A stretch of DNA of 17,652 nt from Bacteroidaceae bacterium (GTDB taxonomy: Bacteria; Bacteroidota; Bacteroidia; Bacteroidales; Bacteroidaceae): NCBI GenBank assembly GCA_021443285.1, contig JABUUG010000002.1:1-17652 (forward strand), read 5' to 3'. Shown here one piece after another: positions 1 to 17,185 of the stretch (positions within the stretch are counted from its first letter, which is position 1; every line of letters begins with the position of its first letter). The notes beneath the pieces were generated by a model. It saw nothing but the letters and a program-made list of their open reading frames with translations, did no database searches and had not been told where the DNA came from. Made by a program: the position numbers and the translations under genes.

Positions 1-374
1 CACGTATTCCTGCCACTGTATGCCACAGCAGCCGGGCGTTGCGATAAAGGCGCGTTCCGTGCTTGAGAGTGTTATTCAAAACAAGTGTGTGGTATATTAT
101 TCGGAACGGATGTGTGCGAGCTATCCATCCGAATGTCTTTCATGGAAAATGTCGTGTCTGTTGTGCTGGTATCAGGCGCGAAGTTAATACATAGTGAACA
201 ATACGCACAAATTTATCGGCGAATATTTTGGGCATAATGCCATTTTCTTCCAATACCGACCAATAAATTGGGCGAAAAGAACTCACAAACAGGAGTCTAT
301 ACGCGGTGATACAGGGTTTAAGACTGTTGGCACAGATTATCTTTGCGTATGTGAAAGCATCTGACAGGGAGTGA
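1..374. other. Left edge, no supportable gene
   Basis: This stretch lies downstream of the GH43 gene and runs to the window edge. Frames here are short or shadow the GH43 reading frame. A minus-strand frame that starts with a TTG near position 80 stays open to the left edge but has no recognisable motif. A TAAATTTG on the minus strand (208-215) matches the Bacteroidetes -7 box, but no matching -33 box lies at the right distance. I see no hairpin with a T tract that would serve as a terminator for the GH43 transcript. Confidence 0.5.
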
Positions 375-1733
375 TTATTTTTGAATCTGCCACCAGTCGA
401 ATTCGAAGAGTGATGATGCAGATTTGCTGTCTGCGCAGAATCGGAACCACAGGTCATGTTTGCCGGCAACAGGTTTCAGGGTTGCTTTTGCAGTGCCGTC
501 ATTTTGTATTTTTACTGTTCCTATGAGTTGTCCTTCAGGGCTGTCTAAGCGTAGCTCGATGGTTGCGGGGGTTTGCACATTCTTGACGTCTGCGATGAAG
601 GTGCCTGCAGAAGCCTTCTGGAAGAGAACGCCCTTGAGCATGAGGCAGTCGTTGTTGTGTATGTGTGTGAGGAGGATGTTTCCCTGATTGTCTTTTCGTG
701 TCTTTAGTCCCCATGCATACGCCATTGTCTCTGCCTGGACGCGCTGATATGGATTGAAAGTACCAACCTGCTCTACGCCGTCCTTACTCCAATAGGGTAC
801 TGGCTCTATCGTTCCATCGGAACGGTAGTTTAGTTCCTGGCATGAGACGGAGCGTCGCTCGGCATGGCGGTATGGTGTGCCTACATACTTGAGTCGCGCT
901 GCCCAGAGGTCGTAGTTCAGTCCGAAGACATAGTCTTTTCCTTTATAGCTTATGATGCCTGGGTGGTTTCCTCGTGAAAGCTGTGTGTGTGGCATGACAT
1001 CGCCTTTGTACTGCCACGGCCCTGTTATCTTATCGCTCATGGCGTATCCTATTCCTTCGGGGCAGCATGTTGAGGCGAACGCCATGTAATATCTGCCATC
1101 ACGCTTGTAGAGCCACGGCCCTTCCTGATAGTCTTGTATTTTTGGGTGCTGTACAATACTGCCCGATGTGGATATCATGTCGGGATTGAGCTTTATGCTG
1201 TAGAGGTTGGGATTTCCCCAGTAGAGGTACGCCTGGTTGTCATCGTCAATCCATACTGTAGGGTCGATGTCATACCAGTGTTCACGCTGCCATACGAGCG
1301 GTTTTCCGAGAGGGTCTTTGAATGGGCCGTAAGGGCTGTCGGCTACGAGCACACTGATACCGTTTCCGTGTATAGGGCAGTACATGTACCACTTGCCGCT
1401 GCGCTCTATGACCTGCTCCGCCCATGCTCCGTTGTTGTTTCTGTACCATTTGAAGTCGGCGAGTGATGCCACTGCCCCGTGGTCTGTCCAGTTGACCATA
1501 TCTGTGGAGGTGTACAGGAGCCAGTCGAACATCTTGAAGCCTTCGGCGTCGTCTTCGTCGTGTGTGGTGTAGAGATACACAGTGTCTCCGTGGACGTATG
1601 GTGCTGGGTCGGCGGTGTATTTGGTCCAGACAATGGGGCGCTGGGCAGAAACTGTTAAGAAGGTGAAGAAAGCGAAAAGGGAAAACGCCATGCGCTGACG
1701 CGCAAGGCACAGGGGTAGGAAACGGGTGTTCAT
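375..1733 (-). CDS. Secreted GH43 glycoside hydrolase with C-terminal CBM6-like domain
   Basis: Probable arabinofuranosidase, xylosidase or arabinoxylan arabinofuranohydrolase acting on plant hemicellulose or pectin side chains outside the cytoplasm. The N-terminus has a signal peptide ending near SAQ (residues 29-31). The five-bladed propeller domain follows, with the three GH43 acidic residues visible: Asp42 in ADPAP, Asp157 in DIDPT and Glu204 in QEGPW. From about residue 330 (QAETMAYAWG) to the end (FEFDWWQIQK) the sequence looks like a CBM6 domain. Two starts are possible: the ATG used here, and ATG at 1691 (M15), which gives a more compact signal peptide. M15 lies inside a copy of the 28-bp hairpin element found elsewhere in the window. 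It is the last of the minus-strand run and follows a secreted DUF2147 gene after 45 nt that contain T8/G7 homopolymers. Family assignment is firm; the exact substrate is not readable. Confidence 0.93.
   Translation of the reverse strand: MNTRFLPLCLARQRMAFSLFAFFTFLTVSAQRPIVWTKYTADPAPYVHGDTVYLYTTHDEDDAEGFKMFDWLLYTSTDMVNWTDHGAVASLADFKWYRNNNGAWAEQVIERSGKWYMYCPIHGNGISVLVADSPYGPFKDPLGKPLVWQREHWYDIDPTVWIDDDNQAYLYWGNPNLYSIKLNPDMISTSGSIVQHPKIQDYQEGPWLYKRDGRYYMAFASTCCPEGIGYAMSDKITGPWQYKGDVMPHTQLSRGNHPGIISYKGKDYVFGLNYDLWAARLKYVGTPYRHAERRSVSCQELNYRSDGTIEPVPYWSKDGVEQVGTFNPYQRVQAETMAYAWGLKTRKDNQGNILLTHIHNNDCLMLKGVLFQKASAGTFIADVKNVQTPATIELRLDSPEGQLIGTVKIQNDGTAKATLKPVAGKHDLWFRFCADSKSASSLFEFDWWQIQK
1688..1715 (-). 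repeat. 28-bp box-hairpin element, copy 1 (GH43 signal peptide region)
   Basis: Read on the minus strand: box CCCCTG (1715-1710), two bases, arm CCTTGCGC, loop GTCA, arm GCGCATGG. Seven of the eight arm positions pair. It shares both arms except two bases, and the loop, with the intergenic copy at 10133-10160. It is translated as PLCLARQRM, and its final ATG (1689-1691) is the second possible start of the GH43 gene. The pyrimidine-rich stretch after it (to about 1650) resembles the 9-bp repeat that follows the intergenic copy and encodes the FAFFTF signal-peptide core. Confidence 0.75.
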
Positions 1734-1743
1734 GGTTTTAATG

Positions 1744-1758
1744 TTTTTTTTGGGGGGG
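1744..1758 (-). promoter_or_regulatory. Homopolymer pair (T8 then G7) just upstream of GH43
   Basis: On the plus strand eight T (1744-1751) are followed by seven G (1752-1758). On the GH43 sense strand this is C7 then A8, ending 11 nt before the first ATG. Such tracts can change length by slipped-strand mispairing, which could alter translation or transcription of the downstream gene. Length variation is not visible from one sequence, so a switching role is only a possibility. Confidence 0.4.
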
Positions 1759-1778
1759 TAACTGGGGATAGCCGGGAA

Positions 1779-2216
1779 TTACTTGATCCTTTTCCAGTAT
1801 ATGCGCTTGAAGAATGGTCCGACCTTTCCTCTGAGTTCGAGGGTGTTCTCGTCCTTGAACCTTACATCGACATTGAACTTCATGCCTCTGGTTGGGTCGT
1901 AGATTTTGCTGTCTTTCCAGATGTCGTCTTCTTTGTCATAGATGAGCTTGTCGATGAGGACGATTTGTGATGTCGGAATGTTACGCAGGGACTTGTCGGG
2001 ATTCTTGACATCGAGCTTTGTGCTTCCGTCCGGGTTCTTGCTGTCGCTGACCCAGTAAATCTGTGCGCGATAGCCGTCCTGATACTTGAAGAACTTGACC
2101 TTGGATTGCTTGCCGTTATGGTCAACCCAGTAGTTTCCAATGAGTTTGTCTGCCTGTGCCATCACTGAAAGGGTGGCAAAGAGGGAGAGGATAATGAATG
2201 AGTAAAAGCGTTTCAT
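1779..2216 (-). CDS. Secreted DUF2147 family protein
   Basis: A 145-residue protein with a clear signal peptide (MKRFYSFIILSLFATL then VMAQA, cleavage near residue 21) and a mature part that fits DUF2147: an opening GNYWVDHNGK, a strand KVKFFKYQDGYRAQIYW, then LDVKNPDKSLRN, IYDPTRGMKF and the closing LELRGKVGPFFKRIYWKR. Members are small periplasmic or secreted beta-rich proteins of unknown biochemical role, so no function can be given. It lies 61 nt downstream of the CE12 esterase and 45 nt upstream of the GH43 enzyme, all on the minus strand. It may share a transcript with them, although an ATGATTT repeat array occupies the gap before it. Confidence 0.88.
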   Translation of the reverse strand: MKRFYSFIILSLFATLSVMAQADKLIGNYWVDHNGKQSKVKFFKYQDGYRAQIYWVSDSKNPDGSTKLDVKNPDKSLRNIPTSQIVLIDKLIYDKEDDIWKDSKIYDPTRGMKFNVDVRFKDENTLELRGKVGPFFKRIYWKRIK

Positions 2217-2223
2217 TGTTTAT

Positions 2224-2268
2224 GTGATTTTTTGGTTTATGATTTGCGGATGTATGATTTATGATTTA
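2224..2268. repeat. Degenerate ATGATTT array upstream of the DUF2147 gene
   Basis: The gap between the CE12 gene and the DUF2147 start contains GTGATTT, TATGATTT, GTATGATTT and ATGATTT units. These are the same motif that forms a cleaner tandem array in front of hisS (4574-4617). It is AT-rich and non-coding in any supported frame. Whether it affects expression is unknown. Confidence 0.6.
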
Positions 2269-2277
2269 TCCGGCTCT

Positions 2278-3177
2278 TTAGCGTCGTCTTTGTTTGAGGT
2301 CGGGGACTTCGTGGCATAGCTCGTCAATGAGCAGTTTCGCGACTACTCTTGCCCCATATATGTTATAATGGGTGTTGTCTCTCCTGCCCTTGGGAAGTTC
2401 GGGGATTTCGCCTGCATCATACCAGAGATGCAGTTTCCTTGACTCCATCGGCCCGAGCTTCTGCTCAAGCTGGTGGGTTATCTTGTTTGCATCGATGAAC
2501 GTAACTCCCTGCTCAAGTGCGACTTCGCGAGGGGAATAGCGGTAGTAGCCGTGGGTGTCGATAAGGGTGTCGCCTTCGAGAGATTTCGGAGCTGATGCTC
2601 CGAAGGCGGTGGTATTTGGGGAGGCGGTGGTGTTGCGGAGAGCCTCGTCGTCATGGTCTTTGGGGAGTTTGCCTGTGAAGTTCCGCCTTGCAACAGGGTT
2701 CATGACGACGGGATGCCCACCCTTGCTTTTTGTTTCGATGATGAAACGGCGGATGTTGGCGTCGAAAGTTGTGCCGGGATCGGTATGGCGACTTACTTCC
2801 GCCTTCTGGTCGTTATGTCCGAACTGTATTATGACGTAATCGCCGGGCTTAACCTTATCAAGCACGGTCTGCCACCGTCCTTCATCGATGAAGCTTTTTG
2901 AGGAACGTCCGTTCACAGCATGGTTGTCCACGACGAGCAGGTCTGGGTTGAACAGTTCCTGCACCATCATCCCCCATCCGCGTTCGGGTCCCTTAGTGGT
3001 ATCCTTCTGAGCCATGGTGGAGTCTCCAATCATGAACAGGGTAACAGCTTTGTCGGGCTGCATGGAGCAGAGGAGAAGAATAACGAATAGAGAACAGAGA
3101 ATAGTGAATAGTTTGCTGCCGCGGAAATTTCGGAGCCGATGCTCCGAACACGGTGGCTCTTTTTTGTTATTGCGCAT
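2278..3177 (-). CDS. Secreted SGNH/GDSL esterase, rhamnogalacturonan acetylesterase-like (CE12)
   Basis: Likely removes acetyl groups from pectin (rhamnogalacturonan) or a related acetylated polysaccharide outside the cytoplasm. All SGNH blocks are present: GDSTMA with nucleophile Ser53, the oxyanion Asn89-Gly90 in VNGRSS, GHND (residues 120-123) and the DNTH pair Asp267/His270. A hydrophobic segment at residues 22-37 acts as signal peptide or anchor; its LLLC ending is not a good lipobox. The start overlaps the hisS stop by 11 nt. Two repeats are built into the protein. Residues 8-36 or so are made of a hairpin element plus heptad block (reading [10 protein letters not shown] then RGSKLFT). 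Residues 191-198 (AFGASAPK) come from a second hairpin element placed just before the conserved LIDTHG segment. Native copies elsewhere should lack these. Family call is firm; the substrate is inferred. Confidence 0.92.
2585..2612 (-). repeat. 28-bp box-hairpin element, copy 2 (inside CE12 gene)
   Basis: On the minus strand: box CCACCG (2612-2607), CC, arm TTCGGAGC, loop ATCA, arm GCTCCGAA. The eight arm pairs are perfect. It is read in frame as TAFGASAPK, the same phase as the copies in hisS and porU, and lies in a loop between the conserved RRNF and DTHG parts of the esterase. Confidence 0.82.
3078..3123 (-). repeat. Heptad repeat block at the 5' end of the CE12 gene
   Basis: On the minus strand the head CGCGGCAGCAAACT is followed by four 7-bp units (ATTCACT, ATTCTCT, GTTCTCT, ATTCGTT) and ATTC. 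The first 19 bases are identical to the blocks at 10197 and 13067. It encodes [16 protein letters not shown], the hydrophobic part of the signal sequence. It lies six bases after a hairpin element (3129-3156). Confidence 0.82.
3129..3156 (-). repeat. 28-bp box-hairpin element, copy 3 (CE12 N-terminus)
   Basis: On the minus strand: box CCACCG (3156-3151), TG, arm TTCGGAGC, loop ATCG, arm GCTCCGAA, with perfect arms. It begins 19 nt inside the CE12 gene and is read in a different phase from the three internal copies, giving PPCSEHRLR. It is followed directly by the heptad block, so this is a composite copy. Confidence 0.8.
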
Positions 3178-4570
3178 TGTTTTTCAGGGTGGTAATCAGG
3201 TCTTGTATGGTAAGGGTTGTTTGCTGACCTGTTGCCATATTTTTAAGAGTGACAGTTTGGTCAGCCATTTCTGTTTCACCGGTGAAGGCGACAAAGGGGA
3301 TGTTCTTTGCGTTTGCATAGTTCATCTGCTTCTTCATCTTTGCGGAATCGGGATACAGCTCTGCACGTATGCCAGCCTGACGCACTTCGGATATGACGGA
3401 CAGGGCATAGAGTGCCTCCTTCTCCCCGAAATTTATGGCGAGCAGCTGTGTGCCTTGAATGGAGTCTTTGGGGTAGAGGTTGAGGGCATTGAGAACGTCA
3501 TATATGCGGTCTGCACCGAAAGAAATGCCTACGCCGGAAATGCCGGGCATGCCAAAAATGCCGGTGAGGTTATCATAACGTCCTCCGCCTGTGATACTGC
3601 CTATCTGAACATCAAGAGCCTTGACCTCGAAAATTGCGCCTGTGTAGTAGTTGAGTCCGCGTGCGAGGGTGAGGTCGAGCTGGAGTTCATTCGGAGCTGA
3701 TGCTCCAAAAGCGGGGGTAGTTTTGCCTCCATCGTGCCTTGAAGCCTCAAAGGTGTTTATTATAAAACGACATTCTTCGACACCTTTAAGTCCGGTTTCA
3801 GAATCTTTGAGTACTTCAGCTATGGTGTCAAGTTTCTCTTCGTTAGTACCTGTAAGCTTTATGATTGGCTGCAACTTCTCTATCTGCTCTTCGGAAAGTC
3901 CGTCATCCAGAAGTTCTTTGTTAACATTATCTATGCCAATCTTGTCGAGTTTGTCTATTGCGACAGTTATATCGACAATCTTGTCGGCGGCTCCAATGTA
4001 CTCTGCTATGCCGGAGAGTATCTTGCGGTTGTTAATCTTTATCTGCACCCGTATGCCGAACTTCGTGAAAACGGTGTCGACAATCTGCATAAGCTCCACC
4101 TCATTGAGAAGGGAGTCGGACCCTACGACATCAGCATCACACTGATAGAACTCTCTGTACCTGCCCTTCTGCGGCCGGTCGGCACGCCATACTGGCTGTA
4201 TCTGATAGCGCTTGAAGGGGAGTTGGAGTTCGTCACGGTGCATCACGACATATCGTGCAAAGGGGACTGTCAGGTCATAGCGGAGTCCCTTCTCGCAAAG
4301 CCTTGAGGCGAGCTTTAGGGAGTTTCTTGAGGCAAGTTCCTCTTCGGAAATCTTTGAGAGGTAGTCTCCGGAATTGAGTACCTTGAACAGGAGCTTGTCG
4401 CCCTCCTCGCCATACTTGCCCATGAGTGTGGAGAGGTTCTCCAGAGAGGGGGTCTCTATCTGCTGGAAGCCATAGAGGGCATACACCTCCCGGATAGTGT
4501 TGAAGATATAGTTACGCTTCGCCATCTCCACAGGAGAGAAGTCCCGCGTACCTTTTGGAATGGAAGCCAT
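3167..4570 (-). CDS. hisS: Histidine--tRNA ligase
   Basis: Class II synthetase that charges tRNA-His with histidine in the cytoplasm. Visible are the opening KGTRDF, motif 2 around [11 protein letters not shown] (about 137-146), [12 protein letters not shown] (98-109), the histidine-binding [10 protein letters not shown] (302-311), motif 3 in [10 protein letters not shown], and a C-terminal anticodon-binding domain. At 467 residues it is a little long for the family. The excess includes residues 283-295 ([13 protein letters not shown]), which come from a hairpin element (3690-3717) placed directly before the conserved [11 protein letters not shown]. From memory of Bacteroides HisS proteins this loop is normally short, so I infer an in-frame insertion. 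The gene follows purA after 61 nt holding a tandem repeat, and overlaps the CE12 start by 11 nt. Being essential, it must work despite the insert. Confidence 0.97.
3690..3717 (-). repeat. 28-bp box-hairpin element, copy 4 (inside hisS)
   Basis: On the minus strand: box CCCCCG (3717-3712), CT, arm TTTGGAGC, loop ATCA, arm GCTCCGAA. Seven of eight arm positions are Watson-Crick and the eighth is a wobble-type G/T in RNA. It is read in frame as [10 protein letters not shown] in HisS, in the same phase as the copies in the CE12 gene and porU. Confidence 0.82.
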
Positions 4571-4573
4571 ATT

Positions 4574-4617
4574 ATGATTTGGTGATTTATGATTTATGAT
4601 TTGGTGATTTATGATTT
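4574..4617. repeat. Tandem 22-bp repeat (two exact units) between purA and hisS
   Basis: Two identical 22-bp units, 4574-4595 and 4596-4617, each made of ATGATTT, GGTGATTT and ATGATTT. They fill nearly all of the 61-nt gap and end 3 nt before the hisS start codon on the minus strand, so they would form the hisS leader. A looser version of the same motif precedes the DUF2147 gene. Confidence 0.85.
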
Positions 4618-4631
4618 CGCGGGAGGCGGGA

Positions 4632-5915
4632 TTACTTCCTGATTATGGTCTGCTCGCGGTCAGGACCGATGGAGATAATCCTGATTGGGGTTTTGAGTTC
4701 CGCCTCGAGGAATGCCACATAATCCTTGAAAGCCTGCGGGAACTGGTCTTCGGAGGTCATCTGTGTCATGTCTGTCTTCCATCCCGGCATTTCCTTGTAT
4801 ATAGGCTCTATGCCCTCCTCTATGGAGTATGGGAAATGGTCGGTTTCAACGCCATTCTGCTTGTATGCCACACAAGCCTTGATTGTGTCAAAGCCATCGA
4901 GCACATCGCTCTTCATCATAATGAGTTGTGTAACGCCATTGACGATAATGGCATATCTTAATGCGACAAGGTCAATCCATCCGCAACGGCGCTCACGACC
5001 AGTAACAGCTCCGTACTCATGTCCGATGGCACGCATTTTGGTGCCTGTCTCATCAAAGAGTTCTGTAGGGAACGGGCCTGCACCCACACGAGTGCAATAA
5101 GCCTTGATGATACCGAAGACCTCACCAATCTTGTTCGGACCGATGCCGAGTCCGGAACAAGCACCGGCACAGATTGTGTTGGAAGAGGTGACAAATGGGT
5201 ATGAACCGAAATCAACATCGAGCATGGTACCCTGAGCTCCCTCGCAAAGCATAGACTTGCCGCTTTCGAGCAATTTGTTTATTTCATGCTCTGAGTCGAT
5301 AACCTGGAACTTGCGGAGGTATTCTATACCTTCCATCCAGTGCTTCTCAATCTCTGTGATGTCATAGTCTGTGTAGTTAAGGGCCCGGAGCATCTCCTCA
5401 TGGCGTGCCTTGTGGGCAGCATATTTCTCCTCGAAATTGCAGAATATGTCGCCAAGCCGCAGTCCGTTTCGAGACGTCTTGTCTGTATATGTCGGGCCGA
5501 TGCCTTTGCCTGTTGTCCCCACCTTGTTCTTTCCCTTTGCAGCCTCATAAGCGGCGTCGAGTACTCGGTGTGTAGGCATAATGAGGTGGATTTTCTTGGA
5601 AAGCATCAGTCGTTCAGGGATATTATATCCGCTCTTTTCCAGGTCTTTTGCCTCATCCATAAAGAGGTCCGGCGCAAGTACCACTCCGTTTCCGATGATA
5701 TTTGTCTTGTCTCCTTGGAAAATGCCCGATGGTATGGAACGCAGCACATACTTCTTTCCCTCAAATTCAAGGGTATGCCCGGCATTCGGACCGCCCTGAA
5801 AGCGTGCCACGATGTCATAATTCGGTGTGAGCACGTCAACAACTTTACCTTTTCCCTCGTCACCCCATTGGAGTCCGAGCAGTACATCAACTTTACCAGT
5901 TTTCATTGTATTCAT
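4632..5915 (-). CDS. purA: Adenylosuccinate synthetase
   Basis: Joins IMP and aspartate with GTP hydrolysis to give adenylosuccinate, the first committed step to AMP, in the cytoplasm. The N-terminal loop [11 protein letters not shown] (residues 14-24) with catalytic Asp, the [10 protein letters not shown] segment (IMP/His catalytic), the [11 protein letters not shown] stretch, the [22 protein letters not shown] block and the guanine-binding end ([11 protein letters not shown]) are all present. The 427 residues equal the family length. Two in-frame ATGs exist (5915 and 5906); the first is used here. It starts 3 nt after the stop of the Fur-like gene, so the two are almost certainly co-transcribed and perhaps translationally coupled. 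Confidence 0.97.
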
Positions 5916-5918
5916 TTG

Positions 5919-6401
5919 TTATATTGTAGATTTATTTTTTTTCTTGTTCTCTGCCTTCGTCAGTTTTGCCTTGCACGAGGCGCATATACCGTCGATAGTT
6001 ATACGGAACGATTCTCGTGAAAACCTCTTCAGCTTTATATTGCCTATAGCCTCTTCGGCGGACTGGGTGTCGAGGAAGGTGGTCTTTCCGCACACCCGGC
6101 ATACCTGCACACAGGCGTTCCTGCTGAGTATGATGTCGTAGTATGAGCGCGAGTCCATGCGTACACACCGCATGAGTCCGAGTTTCTGGAAGAGCCTCAA
6201 CGCGTTGTAAACGGTGGACCTGCAGATGGGGAATGATGTGGCCTGACTGAGCTTTTCCTCCAAATCATCGAAGGTGAACCTCCGAGAGAACGAGTAAACG
6301 GTCTTCAGCACAGTTTCGCGTTCTGGCGTTTTCCTGCAGTTGTTCTTTTCTATATAGTCGTGCAGTGTCCTGAGGGCGATATTGTAGTCCGTTTCCTTCA
6401 T
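5919..6401 (-). CDS. Fur-family transcriptional regulator lacking the usual metal-sensing histidines
   Basis: A 160-residue DNA-binding protein with the Fur layout. The winged helix contains CRKTPERETVL (22-32) and the recognition helix CRSTVYNALRLFQKLGL, followed by a dimerisation domain with two CxxC pairs (CRVCGK and CASCKAK) that normally hold structural zinc. What is missing is notable. The His-rich stretch before the first CxxC (HYHAICENCGK in PerR) is ACVQVCRVCGK here, with an extra Cys, and the first-domain His (PerR H37 position) is replaced within RRFTFDDLE. Only one His is present in the whole protein. Metal sensing of the standard kind is therefore doubtful, and it may respond to something else or use cysteines. 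It sits 3 nt upstream of purA. The AAA-rich tail (KAENKKKNKSTI) is basic. Confidence 0.9.
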   Translation of the reverse strand: MKETDYNIALRTLHDYIEKNNCRKTPERETVLKTVYSFSRRFTFDDLEEKLSQATSFPICRSTVYNALRLFQKLGLMRCVRMDSRSYYDIILSRNACVQVCRVCGKTTFLDTQSAEEAIGNIKLKRFSRESFRITIDGICASCKAKLTKAENKKKNKSTI

Positions 6402-6408
6402 TATCCGA

Positions 6409-6999
6409 TTATCCTATTACACTACGCAGGGCGTTCTCGACGATTCTCTCGTGTTCTTCGCTCAAAGACGCAAGTTTGTTCAGGCAGTTGATAGCAGCGT
6501 GCGAGCGGCATGCGAGAGCCTGGTCTATGAGTTCGTTCATATCCCTCACTGCCGGCTGTTTTCCCTGCGAGAACAGCCCTGACAACGTGTTATAGCCGCA
6601 AATCTGCTGTATGTCGTTGATCGAGGCTATCCACTGGAAAGCAAGCGAGGCGGCATCGGCGGTGTATTGCATCAGGTAAAACGCGAGGTACTGCGCTATC
6701 TCTGGAGTAGTGGTCTGCTCAATCCACAGCTGCGCAAGGTCTTGGGGGAACTTCTCTGGCGGCATCAGCATAGTGGCGAGAATCTTGCACTCCCTTGTAT
6801 TGCTCTTCCACAGCTCAGCTGCGAGTTCATAGTCTTTGTCATAGTCGGAGGCTATCTGCTTCAGGTGCTGTATCTTCAAGCCCCAGTTCACCTTATACTC
6901 AACACCCTTCTCACGCATCGATGCTGATGCGACACCGTCCATATACAGATGGAACTGCCGCTTTATGGTCCTTACCTTTTCAATAGTCTCCTCTGCCAT
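6409..6999 (-). CDS. AlkD-like HEAT-repeat protein (DNA alkylation repair family), short form
   Basis: A 196-residue all-helical protein fitting the DNA alkylation repair/AlkD family: the opening MREKGVEYKVNWGLKIQHLKQIA, then ELAAELWKSNTRECKILATML, and helical pairs to the end. Family enzymes excise alkylated bases. In AlkD the key Trp/Asp pair sits in a WDxxD-type stretch of the central helices; at the matching place I read WIEQTTTPEIAQYLA, without that pair, so glycosylase activity is uncertain. The protein is also shorter than the usual 220-240 residues. Its start overlaps the DPP III stop by 20 nt and its stop is 7 nt from the Fur-like start, so it belongs to the same transcript. Confidence 0.8.
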   Translation of the reverse strand: MAEETIEKVRTIKRQFHLYMDGVASASMREKGVEYKVNWGLKIQHLKQIASDYDKDYELAAELWKSNTRECKILATMLMPPEKFPQDLAQLWIEQTTTPEIAQYLAFYLMQYTADAASLAFQWIASINDIQQICGYNTLSGLFSQGKQPAVRDMNELIDQALACRSHAAINCLNKLASLSEEHERIVENALRSVIG

Positions 7000-8899: not shown

Positions 8900-8903
8900 A
8901 ATA

Positions 8904-10109
8904 TCATTTTCTCACTTTCTTTGCCTTCTCTACTTTCTTTACCTTCTTGCTCTGCCTCAGCACATCGCATATCTCGTCAAACTCCCTACCCATATTCAGG
9001 TTAAGATATATGTTGTACAGGGGCGACCCCCACTTGTCCTGACGGTTAGGCTCACGCATCCTGTATGTCTGGAAATAGGGCAAGGCCTTCTTGTAGTAGG
9101 ACAGCATCTTTTCCTTCTCCCCACTGTTTGAAACGGCCTTATCCTTCAGACCCTCAGCGAGATATACATTTGCAATGCCCCCAATGTAGAAGCAGTCCGC
9201 TATCGAGTCTGTCAGTGCAATGGCGGAGTCAGCGGCAGCAATGCAATCCTCAAACCTCTCCATGCCCAGCAAGATTGAAGCCTTCACATAGCGGAACAGC
9301 ACACGGTCGGGGCATTGTTTCAACGAATTGTCCGTCAGTGCCAGTCCCTCTGACATTCTTTGGTTAGACAGGTGGTATTTCAGCAGACGGGTGAAGAAGA
9401 ACTCCTCGCACGGATAGCTTTGCAAACCTGCCTCCAGAGTATGTATATACTCATCGTAAGAGCCTTCATTCCTCTGGTATATCTCAGCCAGATACTTCAA
9501 CGACAACTCATGACCACGCTCAAACGCAAGTGCCAGGTCCTTATACTTCACCGTCTTGTCAAAGTCTGAAAGTCTGTATCCACAGCACAAAGCTCTGAAC
9601 GCCGCTGTTTGCTTCCTCGTGTCAGGTTCATTGTAAACATTCACCCGCAGCCCTGTAGTCTCCCGGAGATAAGTGTCGAACAAATCCCAGGCTTCCGTAT
9701 AGTTCTCCTTTCTGAACATGAACGCACCGCCCGCAAACAGGTTTGACACATATTTCGTCAGGAAATTCGCATTCTTCTTTCTTTCTTCAGGGAACACACT
9801 GTCAGTCATTTCTGCATAGCGGTATGCCCTCATCAGCGTATTGAACATTGCTGCCGAATCGACCGTCTGTTTCAGGTACAGTTTCTCATTCATACCCTCA
9901 TACTGCACTCTGACAGCCTCATTCAGTATCCTGTATATTTTCACGTTATGCTTGTTCTCCTCTTTACTTAGCAGACCAAGCATACCTGTCTCCACCTTAT
10001 CAAGATTCTTTTTCGCTTTCAGCAGGTCTTTCGCCTCAGAAATCTCTTTCTTTTGTGCGGGAACAACCATTGCGACAAACAAAAAGAACAAAACCGTTAT
10101 AACTCTCAT
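8904..10109 (-). CDS. Secreted or periplasmic TPR-like protein with repeat-derived Lys-rich tail
   Basis: A 401-residue protein with a signal peptide (MRVITVLFFLFVAMVVPAQ, cleavage after residue 18 or 19) and an all-helical body. Helix pairs such as NYTEAWDLFDTYLRE, KYLAEIYQRNEGSYDEYIHTLEAGL and RFEDCIAAADSAIAL match tetratricopeptide repeats, so a scaffold or binding role is likely, but no specific function is visible. The last 14 residues (KKVKKVEKAKKVRK) come from four 9-bp units (8907-8949). Without them the protein would end at about VLRQS. It is followed after 4 nt by DPP III. The 131 nt upstream consist mostly of repeats. Confidence 0.82.
   Translation of the reverse strand: MRVITVLFFLFVAMVVPAQKKEISEAKDLLKAKKNLDKVETGMLGLLSKEENKHNVKIYRILNEAVRVQYEGMNEKLYLKQTVDSAAMFNTLMRAYRYAEMTDSVFPEERKKNANFLTKYVSNLFAGGAFMFRKENYTEAWDLFDTYLRETTGLRVNVYNEPDTRKQTAAFRALCCGYRLSDFDKTVKYKDLALAFERGHELSLKYLAEIYQRNEGSYDEYIHTLEAGLQSYPCEEFFFTRLLKYHLSNQRMSEGLALTDNSLKQCPDRVLFRYVKASILLGMERFEDCIAAADSAIALTDSIADCFYIGGIANVYLAEGLKDKAVSNSGEKEKMLSYYKKALPYFQTYRMREPNRQDKWGSPLYNIYLNLNMGREFDEICDVLRQSKKVKKVEKAKKVRK
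8907..8949 (-). repeat. 9-bp purine-rich repeat forming the TPR protein C-terminus
   Basis: On the minus strand, AAGAAGGTA, AAGAAAGTA, GAGAAGGCA and AAGAAAGTG units run to the stop codon and encode KKV KKV EKA KKV. The complementary pyrimidine version (TTACCTTCTTTACCTTC) occurs at 10164-10180, just beyond the other end of the same gene, and a relative lies in the GH43 signal peptide. Confidence 0.7.
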
Positions 10110-10244
10110 TTCACCTTCTTTTACCTTCTATACCCCCGTTCCTTGCGCGTCAGCGCAGGGTGTTTACCTTCTTTACCTTCATCTGCCCCCGCCTTGCGCG
10201 GCAGCAAACTATTCATTCTTCATTATTCACTCTTCGTTATTCAC
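10110..10244. repeat. Composite intergenic repeat: pyrimidine 9-mers, box-hairpin element, second box and heptad block
   Basis: The gap between the unknown gene and the TPR gene is almost wholly repeat. In plus-strand order: pyrimidine units (10111-10130), a full 28-bp element at 10133-10160 (box CCCCCG, TT, arm CCTTGCGC, loop GTCA, arm GCGCAGGG), 9-bp pyrimidine units (10164-10180), a second CCCCCG box at 10186-10191, and a heptad block at 10197-10244. That block has the 19-base core CGCGGCAGCAAACTATTCA then ATTCATT, CTTCATT, ATTCACT, CTTCGTT units. The stop codon of the upstream gene (10241-10243) lies in the last heptad. No promoter of Bacteroidetes type is evident in it. Confidence 0.8.
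10133..10160 (+). repeat. 28-bp box-hairpin element, copy 5 (intergenic)
   Basis: Box CCCCCG, TT, arm CCTTGCGC, loop GTCA, arm GCGCAGGG. All eight arm positions pair, one as G-T. This is the only copy outside a coding region and is oriented opposite to the flanking genes. Its arms match the GH43 copy rather than the TTCGGAGC type. Confidence 0.8.
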
Positions 10245-10834
10245 AGCCTTTCCTCCGGCTCTGTAGAAATATCATCGTGCATTATGTCGTTGCACACTTT
10301 TTCCAGCAACAGCATCTTGCCTTCCTCGCGCTTGGCATATTCGCACGACTGTTTCCATTCTCCGTCAGTTATATCTCTGTGTCCAACAGTTTTAAGGGCT
10401 TCCTTCACATTCAGTGTATAGGTTATTCTGTCATCGACCTTATATCCCTGTAACAGCAGTTCCCTTTTTTGTGCAAGGAACTCCTCCTCTGTTGCATACT
10501 CCACATCATATTTCACTGCACCCTTTATCTTTACCGAGAACCCCCTACCCTTACCGTTCAGCGTTGAGATGGCTGCTAACAGCCTCTCACGCAACGACTC
10601 GTCCAAAGCCTTGGCTGCCAACAATGCACGCTCCCTGTTCTGCACCTTACTACCCTCCGGAAGCTCACTTTTGTTCTCCCAATGGTTCAGCCCTATGTAG
10701 ATGCTGTAGAACACATCATCGTCTATTACAAACTGCGCCGCCGCATAGCCATCTGGCAGTATGTAGTACTTCGTTGGCTTCGGTCTGCTGTTCGACGGGG
10801 TTACAAGTTCCCTGATTTCCTTGAAGATGCTCAT
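10241..10834 (-). CDS. Protein of unknown function
   Basis: I do not recognise this 197-residue protein. It has no signal peptide or membrane segment. The first half (YYILPDGYAAAQFVIDDDVFYSIYIGLNHWE) looks like beta strands, the second (NRERALLAAKALDESLRERLLAAISTLNGKG, then REEGKMLLLEKVCNDIM) is helical and charged, suggesting a soluble cytoplasmic protein. I chose ATG at 10834 (MSIFKEIRELV); a TTG at 10855 would add seven residues (MINNYRP). It has a good promoter of its own about 40 nt upstream (10876-10905), and its stop codon falls in a heptad repeat block, so its last few codons (STEPEERL) may have been changed by that insertion. It is the first gene of the minus-strand run and is divergent from the CobW gene. 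Confidence 0.72.
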   Translation of the reverse strand: MSIFKEIRELVTPSNSRPKPTKYYILPDGYAAAQFVIDDDVFYSIYIGLNHWENKSELPEGSKVQNRERALLAAKALDESLRERLLAAISTLNGKGRGFSVKIKGAVKYDVEYATEEEFLAQKRELLLQGYKVDDRITYTLNVKEALKTVGHRDITDGEWKQSCEYAKREEGKMLLLEKVCNDIMHDDISTEPEERL

Positions 10835-10875
10835 GGGGCGATAGTTATTAATCAATAATATTCCGACAATCGGCG

Positions 10876-10905
10876 CAAAAATACATAATTATTCATGTCG
10901 AACAA
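10876..10905 (-). promoter_or_regulatory. Leftward Bacteroidetes-type promoter
   Basis: On the minus strand a TTG (10905-10903) is followed by 19 nt and TATTTTTG (10883-10876). This fits the Bacteroidetes primary-sigma consensus of a TTTG-like -33 box and TAnnTTTG at -7. Transcription would start near 10870, leaving a leader of about 35 nt before ATG 10834 of the unknown gene. Confidence 0.6.
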
Positions 10906-10960
10906 GTTTTCATCCACTAAATCAGCACTTTATTTCTTTTATGTCAGTTCACAAACACTA

Positions 10961-11005
10961 ATTATGCGCATATTTTGCGGTCTCAAAATAAATTTGTCGC
11001 ATAAT
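10961..11005. promoter_or_regulatory. Nested inverted repeats upstream of the CobW-family gene (candidate operator)
   Basis: Two perfect dyads share a centre region: an outer pair ATTATGCG (10961-10968) and CGCATAAT (10998-11005), and an inner pair TATTTTG (10971-10977) and CAAAATA (10984-10990) with a 6-nt spacer. TAAATTTG (10989-10996) inside it fits a rightward -7 box, although a matching -33 box is not evident. Its place 60 nt upstream of a COG0523 GTPase makes a metal-responsive operator plausible, but the arms do not match a Fur or Zur box I can name. Confidence 0.4.
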
Positions 11006-11064
11006 AAACGCATACAAACGCGCGCAAACGACTTCGTGTAAACAGTTCCACAGCAAATGAAATT

Positions 11065-12357
11065 ATGAATCAGACACCTATTCTTTTGATTACCGGCTAT
11101 CTGGGCAGCGGTAAGACAACACTCGTTAACAATATTCTCGCCAACAAACAGGGCATCAGGTTTGCTGTCATCGTCAATGACATCGGAGAAGTGAACATCG
11201 ACGCAAGCCTTATACAGAAGGGCGGCATCGTAAACCAAGACGACGAAAGCCTTGTAGCCCTCCAGAACGGATGCATCTGCTGTTCACTGAAAATGGATTT
11301 GGTAAAACAGATTAACGACATCATATCGCAGGAGCGTTTCGACTACATTGTCATAGAAGCCAGCGGAATATGCGAACCCGCACCCATCGCACAGACCATC
11401 TGCTCCATACCAATGCTGAATATGCAGGAACTCGCTGGCAAAGGCATCGCACCTGACGCTTCAACGCCAATGCCCAGACTCGACGCAATCGTTACCGTAG
11501 TTGATGTGCTGCGCATGGTTGATGAGTTCGACACAGCAAAGTCACTGCAGATGCCAGAACTGGATGAGGAAGACATTGAAAGACTTGTCATCGAGCAGAT
11601 AGAATTCTGTAACATAATACTCCTGAACAAGGTTTCCGAAGTTACGAAGGAACAGCTCGGACTCGTAAGGCAAATCATCAGAACCCTGCAGCCCAAGGCA
11701 CAAATCATAGAATGCGACTATACGGACATCGACCTTAACCGCATTCTATACACAGAGAAATTCAACTTCGAGGAGGTTGCCACTTCCGCCGCCTGGGTGC
11801 AGAAGATAGAGGAAGAAGCCCACGAAGAACACCATCACCACCATGAGGACGGACATGAACACCATGAGGAGCACCATCATGAACACCATCACCACGGGGA
11901 GGATGACCATTTGGACCACTCTCACTGCGACCACGAGCACGGCCACTGCTGCCATCATCACCACGACCATGACCATAACCACGGCGATGAATACGGGATA
12001 GGCACTTTTGTCTATTACCGCCGCCGTCCTTTCGACCTCCGCTCTTTTGAAGACTTTGTCATTGGCAAGATGCACGGAATAATCAGAACCAAGGGTGTCT
12101 GCTGGTTTAAGGACGACAACGACATGTCGTTCCTCTTTGAACAGGCAGGGTCACAGAAACAACTGAAGGAAGCCGGCCAATGGTTTGCGACCATGGAAGG
12201 CGAGGAACTCGAAATCATGATGGAACGCGAGCCGCAGCTTCGCAAGGACTGGGACGAGAAGGTCGGCGACCGTATGCAGAAGATTGTCTTCATCGGACAG
12301 CACCTCGATGCCGAGAGAATCGTAGCAGACCTTGACACCTGCCTTGTAACAATCTAA
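11065..12357 (+). CDS. CobW/COG0523 family GTPase with His-rich metal-binding insert
   Basis: Probable GTP-dependent metal chaperone (the family includes zinc and cobalt/nickel insertases) in the cytoplasm. The G domain shows Walker A GYLGSGKT (residues 11-18), NDIGEVNID (38-46), the family signature CICC (70-73) and an NK motif followed by VSEV instead of the usual NKxD. Residues 253-310 are extremely rich in His with Asp, Glu and three Cys (for example HEEHHHHHEDGHEHHEEH), a likely metal reservoir. The CobW C-terminal domain begins at about GIGTFVYYRRRPFDLRSFEDF and ends with KIVFIGQHLD and the final CLVTI. It is the first gene after the divergent region with the nested dyad. The metal cannot be told from sequence; zinc is the most common for this arrangement. 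Confidence 0.92.
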   Translation: MNQTPILLITGYLGSGKTTLVNNILANKQGIRFAVIVNDIGEVNIDASLIQKGGIVNQDDESLVALQNGCICCSLKMDLVKQINDIISQERFDYIVIEASGICEPAPIAQTICSIPMLNMQELAGKGIAPDASTPMPRLDAIVTVVDVLRMVDEFDTAKSLQMPELDEEDIERLVIEQIEFCNIILLNKVSEVTKEQLGLVRQIIRTLQPKAQIIECDYTDIDLNRILYTEKFNFEEVATSAAWVQKIEEEAHEEHHHHHEDGHEHHEEHHHEHHHHGEDDHLDHSHCDHEHGHCCHHHHDHDHNHGDEYGIGTFVYYRRRPFDLRSFEDFVIGKMHGIIRTKGVCWFKDDNDMSFLFEQAGSQKQLKEAGQWFATMEGEELEIMMEREPQLRKDWDEKVGDRMQKIVFIGQHLDAERIVADLDTCLVTI

Positions 12358-12378
12358 GCTATAAGGGTAAAAATAACC

Positions 12379-12996
12379 ATGAAGATTTTCGCAATAGGAA
12401 TGAACTACCTGCAGCACACTCTTGAGCTGCACGGCGAGGCATTCAAACCAAAAGAGCCTGTGATTTTTCTCAAGGCAGACTCTTCCATCCTGAAAGACAA
12501 CAAGCCTTTCTTCCTGCCCGACCATCTTGGAAGGATTGACTATGAGACAGAACTCATAGTGCGTATCAACCGCCTCGGCAAGAGCATCGCGCCACAGTTT
12601 GCACACAGATACTATGATGCAGTAAGCGTAGGCATAGACTTCACCGCACGCGACATGCAGGCAAGACTCCGTTCAGAGGGCAACCCATGGGACTTGTGTA
12701 AGGGATTCGACGGGGCAGCCTGCATCGGCGAATGGATTCCAAAGGAGAAGTTTCTTGACGTACAGCGCATACACTTCCACCTCGACATCAACGGTAAAAC
12801 CGTACAGGAAGGCTGCACAAGCGACATGCTCTACAAGGTCGATGAGATTATCAGCTACATCAGCCGCTTCTTCACCCTGAAAACAGGAGACATCCTCTAC
12901 ACAGGCACTCCTGCCGGAATAGGTCCGGTAAGCATCAACGACCATCTCGAAGCATATATCGAAGACCGCAAAGTGCTTGATTTCAACATAAAATAG
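12379..12996 (+). CDS. Fumarylacetoacetate hydrolase family protein
   Basis: A 205-residue enzyme of the FAH fold, similar to acylpyruvate hydrolases/oxaloacetate decarboxylases (FAHD1-like) and to HpcE-type isomerases. The metal-binding acids are visible: Glu56 and Glu58 in DYETEL and Asp87 in GIDFTARD, with the substrate-binding KGFDGAACIG (Lys108, Asp111) and the closing GDILYTGTPAGIGPV. It cleaves or decarboxylates a small diketo acid; the precise substrate is not readable. It starts 21 nt after the CobW gene and is followed by porU after 64 nt, on the same strand. Confidence 0.9.
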   Translation: MKIFAIGMNYLQHTLELHGEAFKPKEPVIFLKADSSILKDNKPFFLPDHLGRIDYETELIVRINRLGKSIAPQFAHRYYDAVSVGIDFTARDMQARLRSEGNPWDLCKGFDGAACIGEWIPKEKFLDVQRIHFHLDINGKTVQEGCTSDMLYKVDEIISYISRFFTLKTGDILYTGTPAGIGPVSINDHLEAYIEDRKVLDFNIK

Positions 12997-13060
12997 CCGA
13001 TTACCTTTACATTTGCCCAATCCAGAAATGCCTGAATTATTTAACCATAGAAATACGAGA

Positions 13061-16000
13061 ATGTTTCGCGGCAGCAAACTATTCACTGTTCGCTATCCAC
13101 TATTCGTTATTCTTCTGCTCTCCAGCCTCAATGCCAAAGCGGAAGACCATGTCGTGTGGCAGCAGTTCTTCAACCTCACTCCCTCTGAACTGCGCATAGA
13201 CTCAGTGCTTCCATTGTTCAAGCACTCACTCCCGCTGCAAGGCAGCTACGAGGACTCCGTCTATTCCATCAAAATCGTCTACCCTGAATGTGTGGAGATA
13301 AAGGACAAGGAGAGGGACATCTGCAAGCAAGAGCACGACAAGCATCTGGTATTCGGCACGGAAGACATAGAGTTCATACCGCGCAAGGCAGGCTTCAAAC
13401 TAATACAAGGGCTGGAGCAGAGCATTGTCGTAGAGCGGAAGAAAGCACGTCTGGAGATCGTTTTCTCTCCAATTGTTTACAGCAGGAAGACCTTCAGCAA
13501 GATGAACAGTTTTATGCTTCGGGTAACATCGAAGGCAAAGACAAAAAGAACAGCAGCCCGAACCGGCAGCAGGGCGCAGGCTGACAGCACATCCATATAC
13601 GCCGCATCGTCCGTACTTTCTGGCGGAAAATGGGCAAAGATATACATTTCAGAGACAGGAATCACCGAGCTTCCGCAGGCAGTAGTCAAGGAGGCTGGTT
13701 TCTCAAACCTCGAAAAAGTCAAAGTTTACGGATATGGCGGACATCTGCAAAACGAGCAGATACTCAAGTCCGAACTCCGCGAACTCGACGACCTCAGGGA
13801 GATTCCCACCACATACACCGACGGACGTCTTTTCTTCTACGGCAAAGCCACAGTGAGCTTTACCGACAAAGACTCCGAACAGGGCACTTCCACCCTTCCC
13901 AAACGCATACGCAACAACTACTCTGAATACGGTTACTATTTCATTACTGAGGACGGGGAAGCACCGCAGCACATCGACAAAGACGCATTCATCGCAAAAT
14001 ACTATCCGCAGAACAACGACTACCACGTCCTACATGAGGTGGACAATTATGCATGGTTTCACGGCGGTCGAAACCTATATGAAGACACCCCGATAGAGAC
14101 CGGAAGCTCAAAGACATACACAATACCGCTGACCGCCTTCCCCAAAGGCACCAACTTTGCGGCAAGCATAAACGTTTCCGCGGGCAGCAGCTCCACATTC
14201 ACCGTTACCTGCAACGGACAGAAGAGCGGCGTCAGGACTGTTTCTTTGGGGAACTACGATGTAGGCAGTTCCAGCCTTTACACCACAAACCTTACAGGCG
14301 ACAGCGCAATAATAACCATTGAAGCCGTTTCGGGCGGACCGCTGCGCCTTGATTACATAGACATTTTCAGCCTTGACAATCCGAAGAACCTGCCTTCATT
14401 CACCTCGCAGGATATTCCCAAGGCAAAGTTTGCCGGCAAAGTCAGCAACCAGAATCTCCATGCTGATGCGGGCTACCACATGGTCATAATAATACCCACA
14501 TCCGGCAAACTCCTTGCACAAGCAGAACGGCTCAAGGCATTCCATGAGACTAACGATAACATGAAAGTCAAGGTTGTTACCGCCGACAAGCTCTTCAACG
14601 AGTTCTCAAGCGGCACACCTGACGCCAACGCCTACCGCCGGTACATGAAGATGCTCTACGACAGGGCAACCACCGAAGCGGACATGCCCCGCCACCTTCT
14701 GCTTTTCGGCAACGGTTCCTTCGACAACCGTATGCTCTCACCGTCATGGATAAAGATTAACCCCGACGACTATCTGCTCTGCTACGAGGGAGAGAACTCC
14801 TTCAGCAAGACAAGCAGTGTAGTGAACGACGGTTTCTTCTGCCTCCTCGACGAAGGAGAGGGCATAAAGCAGACAACATCCGACAAGGAGGACATCGCCA
14901 TCGGCAGACTTCCCGCAAACACTCCCGAAGAGGCTGAAATCATGGTGTCAAAGATTATAAGTTATGCCGAAAACAAGAATGCCGGCAAGTGGCAAAGCAA
15001 AGTGGTCTGCATCGGAGACGACGGCGACAAGAACATCCACATGAAGCATGCTGATGACGTTGCCATAGAGGTAGAGAGACTGGCACCAGCCATGATTGTA
15101 AAGAAGGTCATGATTGACGCCTATAAGCGCGAGTCTTCCGCTACAGGAAACACATATCCAGATGCCACGAAAGACGTCAAAGCACAAATAAACGACGGAG
15201 CACTCATATTCAACTACAGCGGACACGGCGCCCCGACACAGATGGCGCATGAGAACCTGATACAGGCCAACGACTTTTCTTCCGCCACAAACAGGAACCT
15301 GCCCCTCTGGTTTGCAGCAGCCTGCGACATAACACCCTACGACCGCGGCGTAACACACTTCGGTAACTCCGCACTCCTCAATCCCAATGGCGGCGCAATA
15401 GCCTTCTATTCCTCCGCACGCGAAGTGTTCCCCGCACAAAACAAGGCCATAAACCTCGCCTTCATCAAAGCAATCTTCACACCCGTCAAGGGGGAGTATG
15501 TCTCCATCGGAGAGGCACAGCGCATAGCAAAGAACAACCTCATCACCGGTGGCGCCACACAAGACCGAGACCTTTCCGAAAACAAGCTCCAATACTCACT
15601 CATGGGAGATCCCGCCCTCAAACTGAACATCCCGACACAGGAAGTCATCATTGACTCCATCAACGGAAAGAGCATCACCGACGAAGCCGACATCATACAG
15701 CTTAAGGCGGCAAGCATCGCAACCATCAAAGGGCATATCCAAACCACCACTCAGCCCAGCGGTCGCACCGCCACCGCCTCCGAAGCGTCAGCTTCCGATA
15801 CCGACTATACCTTCAACGGCACCGTTAACCTAACCATGCGCGATGCTGAACAGCAAATCGTCTGCCGACTGAACGACCCATCCGCAGCCGACGACCCCTT
15901 CACATTCTACGACCGTCCGACAAACATCTACAATGGCTCGACCTACATAAAGAACGGTGAGTTCACCATAACTTTCGCTGTGCCAAAAGACATAGACTAC

Positions 16001-16771: not shown

Positions 16772-16783
16772 CCCTCTTATCAC

Positions 16784-17185
16784 ATGGCGACAGCAAACCC
16801 TTCACTCTTCATTTTTCACTATTCACTAAAATACATCCTCTCTGCCCTCTGTGCCGTTGCCATCGCAGTCCTCAGCCTCTTTCCTGTCAAGGAACTGCAT
16901 CTGGAGGACATGACACTCAGCGACAAATGGGCGCACTTCATAATGTATGGAGGCTTTATGGCAACCATACTCTTTGACAGGATGTACAGGCAGCGCAACT
17001 TCCGTATGCCCATCCCCATACTCCTTTTCCCAATAGCCTACGGCGGACTCATGGAACTCCTTCAGGCATACTGCACCAACGGCAACCGCTCTGGCGACTG
17101 GCTCGACTTCGCCGCAAACAGCATAGGCGCATTCCTCGTATATACAACAGCACTGATTATAAAATCCAACTACCATAAACCATGA
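16784..17185 (+). CDS. VanZ-like membrane protein
   Basis: A 133-residue inner-membrane protein with about four hydrophobic segments (near residues 16-32, 46-62, 74-88 and 111-126). Conserved VanZ features are DKWAHFIMYGGF (about 46-57), ELLQAY (about 86-91) and the late RSGDWLDFAANSIGAF. The family contains the teicoplanin-resistance protein VanZ, but most members are of unknown role and resistance should not be inferred. It begins 12 nt after porU and overlaps the next gene by 4 nt (ATGA). The first 14 codons after the Met (ATANPSLFIFHYSL) come from a heptad block, so the original start may have been lost and replaced; an internal Met follows only at the MTLSDK region. Confidence 0.82.
   Translation: MATANPSLFIFHYSLKYILSALCAVAIAVLSLFPVKELHLEDMTLSDKWAHFIMYGGFMATILFDRMYRQRNFRMPIPILLFPIAYGGLMELLQAYCTNGNRSGDWLDFAANSIGAFLVYTTALIIKSNYHKP
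16786..16827 (+). repeat. Heptad repeat block at the start of the VanZ-like gene
   Basis: A diverged head (GGCGACAGCAAACC, 17 of 21 positions shared with the other blocks when counted through the first TTCACT) followed by CTTCACT, CTTCATT, TTTCACT and ATTCACT. The gene's ATG directly abuts it. It is read in another phase than in porU, giving SLFIFHYSL. Confidence 0.7.

Follow-up and report, generated by a model that had tools for sequence, protein, structure and literature searches.

What are the six short hairpins that recur along the stretch of DNA analysed here, most of them within genes, and by what means could they have come to lie there? The stretch (the window) comprises 17,652 nucleotides of a Bacteroidaceae bacterium (GenBank assembly GCA_021443285.1, contig JABUUG010000002.1, positions 1 to 17,652) and is contig C222 of genome G000, an assembly of 2.56 Mb in 309 contigs that is 77% complete. 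Each hairpin is built as a box CC[AC]C[CT]G (CCMCYG), 2 nt, an 8-nt arm, a loop [AG]TC[AG] and a returning 8-nt arm, with 0 or 1 arm mismatch per copy. We consider it rather probable that all six sites hold copies of a single mobile palindrome found in Prevotella-group bacteria, of the REP (repetitive extragenic palindromic) type, and that a clade of long HUH/Y1 proteins is the likely cognate enzyme. The best reading of the data is that of REP elements of a new dialect, with neither a GTAG nor a CGTC tag, together with a Y1 clade that had not been connected with REPs before.

Copy 1 (1688..1715, minus strand) reads CCCCTG TG CCTTGCGC GTCA GCGCATGG and occupies codons 6 onward of an open reading frame (ORF; 375-1733, minus) which is GH43 by Pfam. 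The next two copies fall in the ORF of a GDSL esterase (2278-3177, minus), copy 2 (2585..2612, minus; CCACCG CC TTCGGAGC ATCA GCTCCGAA) in frame at codon 188, where it encodes 10 residues, and copy 3 (3129..3156, minus; CCACCG TG TTCGGAGC ATCG GCTCCGAA) at the N-terminal end or in the leader. Also in frame and encoding 10 residues is copy 4 (3690..3717, minus; CCCCCG CT TTTGGAGC ATCA GCTCCGAA) in hisS (3167-4570, minus). On the plus strand, copy 5 (10133..10160; CCCCCG TT CCTTGCGC GTCA GCGCAGGG) is intergenic and copy 6, with diverged arms (15771..15798; CCACCG CC TCCGAAGC GTCA GCTTCCGA), encodes ATASEASASD in frame in a C25 peptidase ORF (13013-16771, plus). The preliminary description had assigned one design to these six intervals, and all positions and parts were re-read as it gave them. 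Its statement that the copies are mostly inside genes holds for five of six by ORF, with the reservation that the copies at 1688 and 3129 may be 5′ leader, because they are near the ORF start (codons 6 and 7), if translation begins downstream; the copies internal to genes are those of HisS (3690), the esterase (2585) and the C25 peptidase (15771). On scanning both strands of the window with up to 3 arm mismatches we obtained the six copies and none besides, and 200 dinucleotide-preserving shuffles of the window (at least 7/8 Watson-Crick pairs) gave a mean and a maximum of 0 against the 6 observed.

A search of G000 allowing up to 2 mismatches gave 41 matches of the TTCGGAGC kind and 20 of the CCTTGCGC kind with 0 for each reversed-pattern control; it may be noted that a near-perfect palindrome can match on both strands and the sites are somewhat fewer than the 41 + 20 matches. 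A covariance model built from 48 copies, the window's six included, gave 105 matches in G000 at E<=5 and 65 at E<=0.01 (150 of 945 candidates scored). The copies thus lie far above chance, and the expectation of a dispersed family, as against chance numbers of matches, is upheld. Model-based counts per genome are lower bounds, with 62 or 150 candidates scored in each. Among 120 genomes of the genus, 19 were element-positive at E<=0.1 (at most 62 candidates scored each), and the expansions are patchy within the genus: G000, G112 and G088 have 57, 52 and 44 matches, and the other 16 positives have 1-4 each. Six further genomes (G136-G141) gave 30, 3, 22, 2, 6 and 4 model matches. The exact pattern for one stem group was found in 32 stretches among 84,980 species genomes, and every one of these belongs to a record titled Prevotellaceae, Bacteroidaceae, Bacteroidales or Prevotella; the isolate names include Horse_feces, Red_deer and Sheep_Rumen. 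Some Prevotella relatives from the guts of herbivores carry the family in dozens of copies per genome. The open-access literature, as far as its accessible parts go, yielded no prior description of the box-hairpin element.

The consensus of the family is a CC[CA]C[CT]G box, 2 bases, an 8-base arm ending in GC, the loop RTCA and the returning arm. The 2 bases after the box are most commonly CG or CT in G000 and TG or TT in sister genomes. Since AG often precedes the box (102 of 242 collected copies; common in sister genomes, less so in the window genome), the true element may be 30 nt, counting this AG. The box with its 2 nt is present in the 48 aligned copies and also gives the commonest boxes among 215 collected copies, which were themselves found by the CCMCYG box. 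Box and loop are fixed while the stem changes with its pairing kept. In 47 distinct aligned copies 94.4% of cells pair and changes on both sides number 78 vs 30 in shuffles, a contrast that owes much to the difference between the two arm kinds used to find the copies. On requiring the box, the two inner GC pairs and the RTCA loop and leaving the six outer pairs free, at least 5 of 6 standard pairs were present in 158 of 165 matches, a count that carries some selection as the matches come partly from loci fetched by pairing-favouring searches; the outer positions show several pair types each, and controls gave 2 matches with the box reversed, 5 with the loop altered and 0 with the loop reversed. 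On the box strand of 128 distinct stems G.T outnumbers A.C (65 vs 28), which suggests that the box-carrying strand is probably the one that folds as a hairpin.

Would such a hairpin be retained for a function in RNA? By this explanation selection in transcripts maintains it as a regulatory structure (a terminator, an attenuator, or a site of processing or protein binding), and the orientation of the copies bears on it directly. Context was read with a longest-ORF gene caller at 69 sites of G000, 48 of G112, 42 of G088 and 24 of G136, in lists that include some chance matches. In G112 the copies follow transcription, with 24 of 27 intragenic copies in sense and 20 of 21 intergenic copies between two genes co-directional with the element; of its 3 antisense copies, two look like chance matches and one lies in a 99-aa ORF. 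G136 (12 sense, 1 antisense that looks like chance, 11 intergenic with 10 co-directional) and G088 (27 sense, 9 antisense, 6 intergenic with all 6 co-directional) lean likewise, as a regulatory hairpin would have it. G000 stands against it with a mixed orientation (14 sense, 15 antisense, 40 intergenic), and the co-directional intergenic bias of G112 is absent there. Put descriptively, copies in G112 and G136 nearly always run with transcription, within and between genes, unlike those in G000. Within the sense copies of G112, 19 of 24 use one frame and encode peptides such as APVSEASASD; the main-kind antisense copies of G000 read FGADAPNAG or near. G112 and G136 also have several sites in common, some with the element better kept than its flanks, again in line with selection in transcripts. 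The stems of the queA copy, at the same place in G112 and G136, differ by two paired changes, and at an intergenic site common to G112 and G000 the pairing is kept through changes; pairing kept at shared sites fits either hairpin selection or conversion among copies.

A single regulatory role is ill-suited to copies that lie in unrelated proteins and are absent from the relatives examined. The HisS copy sits in a loop of variable length, and the insert is absent in 29 of 29 other hisS loci examined and in 118 of 118 other relatives with an excisable loop (best 120 of 7,999); at the closest hisS locus examined, that of G112, the loop is 13 codons shorter. The peptide of the esterase copy was not found in 119 other relatives (best 120 of 7,735). 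The preliminary description would have been undone by the same insert in the hisS and the esterase of all distant relatives; those examined are without it. The HisS loop in other species (L158, L160, L174) holds heptamer repeats of the CTCTTCA and TCTCAAT types, and it can therefore be seen as one tolerant site used by different repeats.

A further strand pattern comes from a phage. Contig C53 of G138 carries a terminase large subunit, a tail protein and a reverse transcriptase (PHROGs), and the first 40 kb of this prophage hold 20 strict copies, all on the plus strand. Most of the coding length there is on the minus strand and the strict copies are mostly antisense to genes; a 5,611-aa ORF holds ten of the 20 and stays open through them. 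A looser list (two box mismatches) has 30 matches; of the ten extra ones, which are mostly chance-like, four lie on the opposite strand. In IMG/VR, viral contigs have one copy or a few each; ten viral loci were listed, and in the four of these that have two strict matches the pair is on the same strand. The looser match lists are mixed in strand. A search of the viral contigs with six short peptides found no Y1 protein. Strict copies on one strand opposite to most of the coding length argue against a regulatory hairpin, as does the outcome of an Rfam search of the window, with no match at gathering scores; with both sides counted, we regard this explanation as decidedly improbable. The strand uniformity in the phage and the wobble asymmetry of the stems are compatible with a single-strand substrate.

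Another possibility is that the element is not mobile and spread passively, by gene conversion or slippage in low-complexity spacers. A number of copies do lie in heptamer-like spacer repeats, and partial tandem copies are found beside some elements. The in-frame copies in unrelated genes and in the prophage, the fixed box and loop and the covarying stem, however, need a process that is aware of the sequence, and passive spread seems to us very improbable indeed.

Which enzyme could provide such a process? G000 has an IS605-type Y1_Tnp gene next to tnpB and, at C276 (3339-4469), a second gene with a weak Y1_Tnp match. The C276 protein has no Pfam hit over the cut-off (Y1_Tnp 17 bits, under cut-off), and a PDB sequence search gave no significant relative of this G000 Y1 protein (best E 0.43). 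Alignments place it in a family of long Y1 proteins with the motifs PDH[LI]H and YLxxNP, so that the HuH and Y...NP hallmarks of TnpA_Y1 class 2 are present; L126 and L131 score above the cut-off for Y1_Tnp in Pfam. With a profile built on three members and a threshold of E<=1e-10, 69 of the 120 genus genomes have the family, and each of the 19 element-positive genomes is among them (hypergeometric 8e-6). Leaving out G000 and G112, the sources of the model rows, the figure is 17 of 17 (2e-5), and in a forward test on the six further positive genomes (G136-G141) the family was present in 6 of 6.

The link is closer than co-occurrence in a genome. Among the Y1 genes fetched or listed from the 126 genomes, a minority have copies of the element within the coding part of the gene, for the most part between the HuH and Tyr motifs, where 16 of the 27 matches in or at Y1 genes fall. 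In several genes the copies form an inverted pair; four genes have an opposite-strand copy 126 nt past the HuH codons, and in eight a same-strand copy starts 107-116 nt before the Tyr codon. Over 65 genes, the HuH-Tyr segment has 16 matches in 19.9 kb vs 6 in 212 kb of distant flank; codon-shuffled HuH-Tyr segments gave a mean of 0.14 and a maximum of 1 in 100 runs. Control hisS and queA loci gave 7 matches in 162 kb, of which four are the window's own and one is the known queA copy of G136. In a tree of these 65 genes, from which 17 of 82 Y1 genes were left out because no HuH or Tyr motif could be detected in them (G137_C75 with three copies among them), a ten-gene clade has support of 100/99 and includes the genes of G000, G112, G136 and G138; its proteins are about 340-440 aa with a long C-terminal part. 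All 10 clade genes have copies inside them or at most 150 nt away, vs 3 of 55 others, the weak matches L398 and L451 not being labelled as element-bearing, and the element label changes 4 times on the tree against a shuffled mean of 12.1 (0 of 500 as low). The Y1 or RAYT (REP-associated tyrosine transposase) gene beside a copy, which the preliminary description had proposed to look for, thus has its counterpart in this clade, with copies inside or beside all ten genes. The box dialect (CCCC or CCAC; G-C or G-T at positions 6-7) is the same in gene-linked copies, whose boxes were entered by hand for the comparison, and in dispersed copies of G000, G112, G136 and G138. Also, a loose expression for the element peptide matches 22 of the 119 other relatives listed for the G000 protein, in most of them just before a conserved LFE. 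In the low-copy genomes G056, G121, G139 and G141 a Y1 gene holds 1 of 1, 1 of 1, 1 of 2 and 1 of 4 listed copies.

These Y1-gene copies could be hitch-hikers in an insertion-tolerant linker, the palindromes being old and dependent for their movement on an enzyme that is general or unknown, an explanation put forward for CGTC repeats. The CGTC repeats are without a linked transposase according to the accessible parts of their description (PMC3733652; this source and PMC6006769, cited below, are drawn on here and throughout for those parts), the HuH-Tyr linker is variable in length, and no clade gene was seen in G088, which has at least 44 copies; its best Y1-family match is weak (1.1e-35), and the one G088 locus looked at in this regard scores 33 bits and has no copies. 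Copies in all ten genes of one clade as against 3 of 55 relatives are not what hitch-hiking predicts, nor is the presence in each of the four low-copy genomes named above of one listed copy in a Y1 gene, and we hold a general enzyme to be unlikely.

Several other points weigh against a mobile REP-like palindrome served by the long Y1 clade. Of 101 genomes in which no element was detected, 50 have the Y1 family, and the other low-copy genomes have no listed model match inside a listed Y1 gene. Common descent accounts for the shared position of some gene-linked copies, so the ten cannot be counted as independent; in other parts of the 65-gene tree, long-branch joins were flagged by the program. 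Pair 6 is G-C in 19 of 20 gene-linked copies vs 5 of 186 dispersed ones; it marks a subtype, and today's dispersed copies were therefore not templated directly by the gene-linked ones. The exact ends of the insert are not fixed by alignments among G112, G136 and G000, whose flanks are too diverged, and no insertion between near-identical strains was seen with one genome per species compared. The mobile REP-like palindrome with its long Y1 clade remains the account we prefer: the REP-like and Y1 part of the preliminary description is carried by the high copy number, the clade linkage and the co-occurrence of the family, with the departure that the tag is neither GTAG nor CGTC.

Other candidate partners were set aside. 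The IS605-type Y1 gene of G000 adjoins tnpB and has no copies in 6 kb; at L059 (G000 C243) an IS605-type tnpA/tnpB pair has next to it a reverse transcriptase and a variable-protein-like ORF, which by eye look like a diversity-generating retroelement (DGR). The pair of a GTAG-type REP and a Y1 gene in G011 was rejected as a member of the same family on account of its different hairpin. In other species of the genus, at L066 (G011 C12) and L069 (G002 C81), Y1 genes are near many copies of another hairpin, with a GTAG or GCAG foot (GTAGGGTGCGGCCCTTGTGGCCGTCCT in L066), which is a separate REP family. The small Y1 genes of G088 (L123, L129, L134) have no convincing copies near them, and dense copy clusters, sought in G112 and G088 to locate a transposase, gave mostly scattered singles. 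DGR-type reverse transcriptases lie near some loci, and the reverse transcriptase of the G138 prophage (L320-L322, C53) looks to be of this type. The RTCA loop of the element is unlike the DGR hairpin loop.

How the copies might arise can be sketched for an element made of a 5′ guide box (CCMCYG and 2 nt, often with AG before it), an 8-bp hairpin closing with GC and the RTCA loop. The proposal takes TnpA_IS200 and RAYT enzymes (PMC6006769) as its model: as these do, the clade enzyme would cleave single-stranded DNA at the guide box next to the hairpin and would paste copies into other single-stranded DNA. Copies would persist where the harm is small, between genes or in frame in loops and linkers, an insert of about 30 nt in frame adding ten small, mostly soluble residues. 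A fuller version is that of a distinct lineage, in which a long Y1 protein with a C-terminal domain recognises the CCMCYG-box/RTCA-loop hairpin, keeps an inverted pair in its own gene as part of the protein and inserts in-frame linkers of 30 nt into the genes of hosts and phages, the strand depending on which DNA strand is exposed (the non-template strand in transcribed host genes, one fixed strand in phage). We offer this version tentatively and would sooner doubt it than accept it.

Besides the hairpin element, a second dispersed repeat is present in the window at 3122 (minus), 10198 (plus) and 13068 (plus), with GCGGYAGCAAACTATTCACTATTC followed by heptamer-like units and sometimes arranged in inverted pairs. 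The GCGGYAGCAAACTATTCACTATTC repeat is also found elsewhere (L003, L011, L027, L034, L048, L153), with 0 for the reversed control. It forms an apparent signal peptide (FRGSKLFT...) in both the esterase and the C25 peptidase, and two unrelated proteins therefore have a common N-terminus of repeat DNA. At L076, L073 and L027 the hairpin element is inside a longer composite repeat, with a flank of about GTTTGAATATAAACAG upstream and about AAATCCGCGGYAGCAAACTATTCA downstream; the downstream half of this composite is also present at window position 3129.

For the REP field, a REP-like family with a new tag gains a candidate enzyme, one that belongs to the long Y1 proteins of a kind described, in the parts of the literature consulted, as without REPs. 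The family offers a natural case of insertions of about ten residues written into housekeeping proteins, and the strand-ordered record in the phage could be used to test enzyme action on single-stranded DNA from replication or transcription.

When compared with known systems, the family shows the REP hallmarks in the broad sense, having a short palindrome, many dispersed copies, a conserved unpaired tag at one end and a linked tyrosine (Y1) transposase gene, with G088, where none was seen, as the exception. REPs are mainly extragenic; the extragenic share here is 40 of 69 in G000, 21 of 48 in G112 and 6 of 42 in G088. Elements of the IS200/IS605 type have tnpA between the element ends, which is not the case here, the dispersed copies being 28-30 nt. 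GTAG REPs have a short hairpin, an unpaired 5′ tag and a RAYT (TnpA_REP) gene, and some are intragenic, including in tRNA synthetase genes (PMC3733652). Our elements are like them in the hairpin with an unpaired 5′ tag, the dozens of copies, the linked Y1 gene and the presence of some intragenic copies. They differ from GTAG REPs, as far as these are described there, in that the tag is CCMCYG and 2 nt with no GTAG or GTGG at the hairpin foot, the RTCA loop is near-fixed, copies are often in genes and the dispersed copies are mostly single (scattered in G112 and G088) and not dimers. CGTC-1, with its 8-bp stem and 4-nt loop, and the other CGTC palindromes, which include RPE-4 and RPE-6 of Rickettsia and have intragenic copies (PMC3733652), match our elements in these three features; the CGTC superfamily with RPE-4 and RPE-6 is defined in the same source by a CGTC, TGTC or CCTC tag and a stem starting with AT, and our elements have no CGTC tag, no AT at the stem foot and, unlike the CGTC repeats, a linked transposase.

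For the enzyme, the closest parallels are among the TnpA_Y1 subclasses of PMC6006769, as far as its accessible sections set them out. Subclass 2.6, mostly from Bacteroidetes, is reported with 'atypical' non-GTAG structures, which our elements share; its proteins are shorter (about 179 aa) and carry the motifs NH[LIV]H and YIH[QN]NP. Subclasses 2.1 and 2.3 are long with extra C-terminal domains, as are the clade proteins, and are reported there without associated REPs, unlike the clade, which is linked to the element. Subclass 2.4 (about 194 aa, NH[IFV]H and WQ motifs, GTAG-type REPs) has in-frame REP copies in the transposase gene between the HuH and Tyr motifs. The clade falls outside it on the HuH motif (DH[LI]H), on the length of about 340-440 aa with its long C-terminal part and on the tag, yet its genes likewise carry element copies between the HuH and Tyr motifs. 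As insertions in genes, the elements resemble the Rickettsia palindromic elements.

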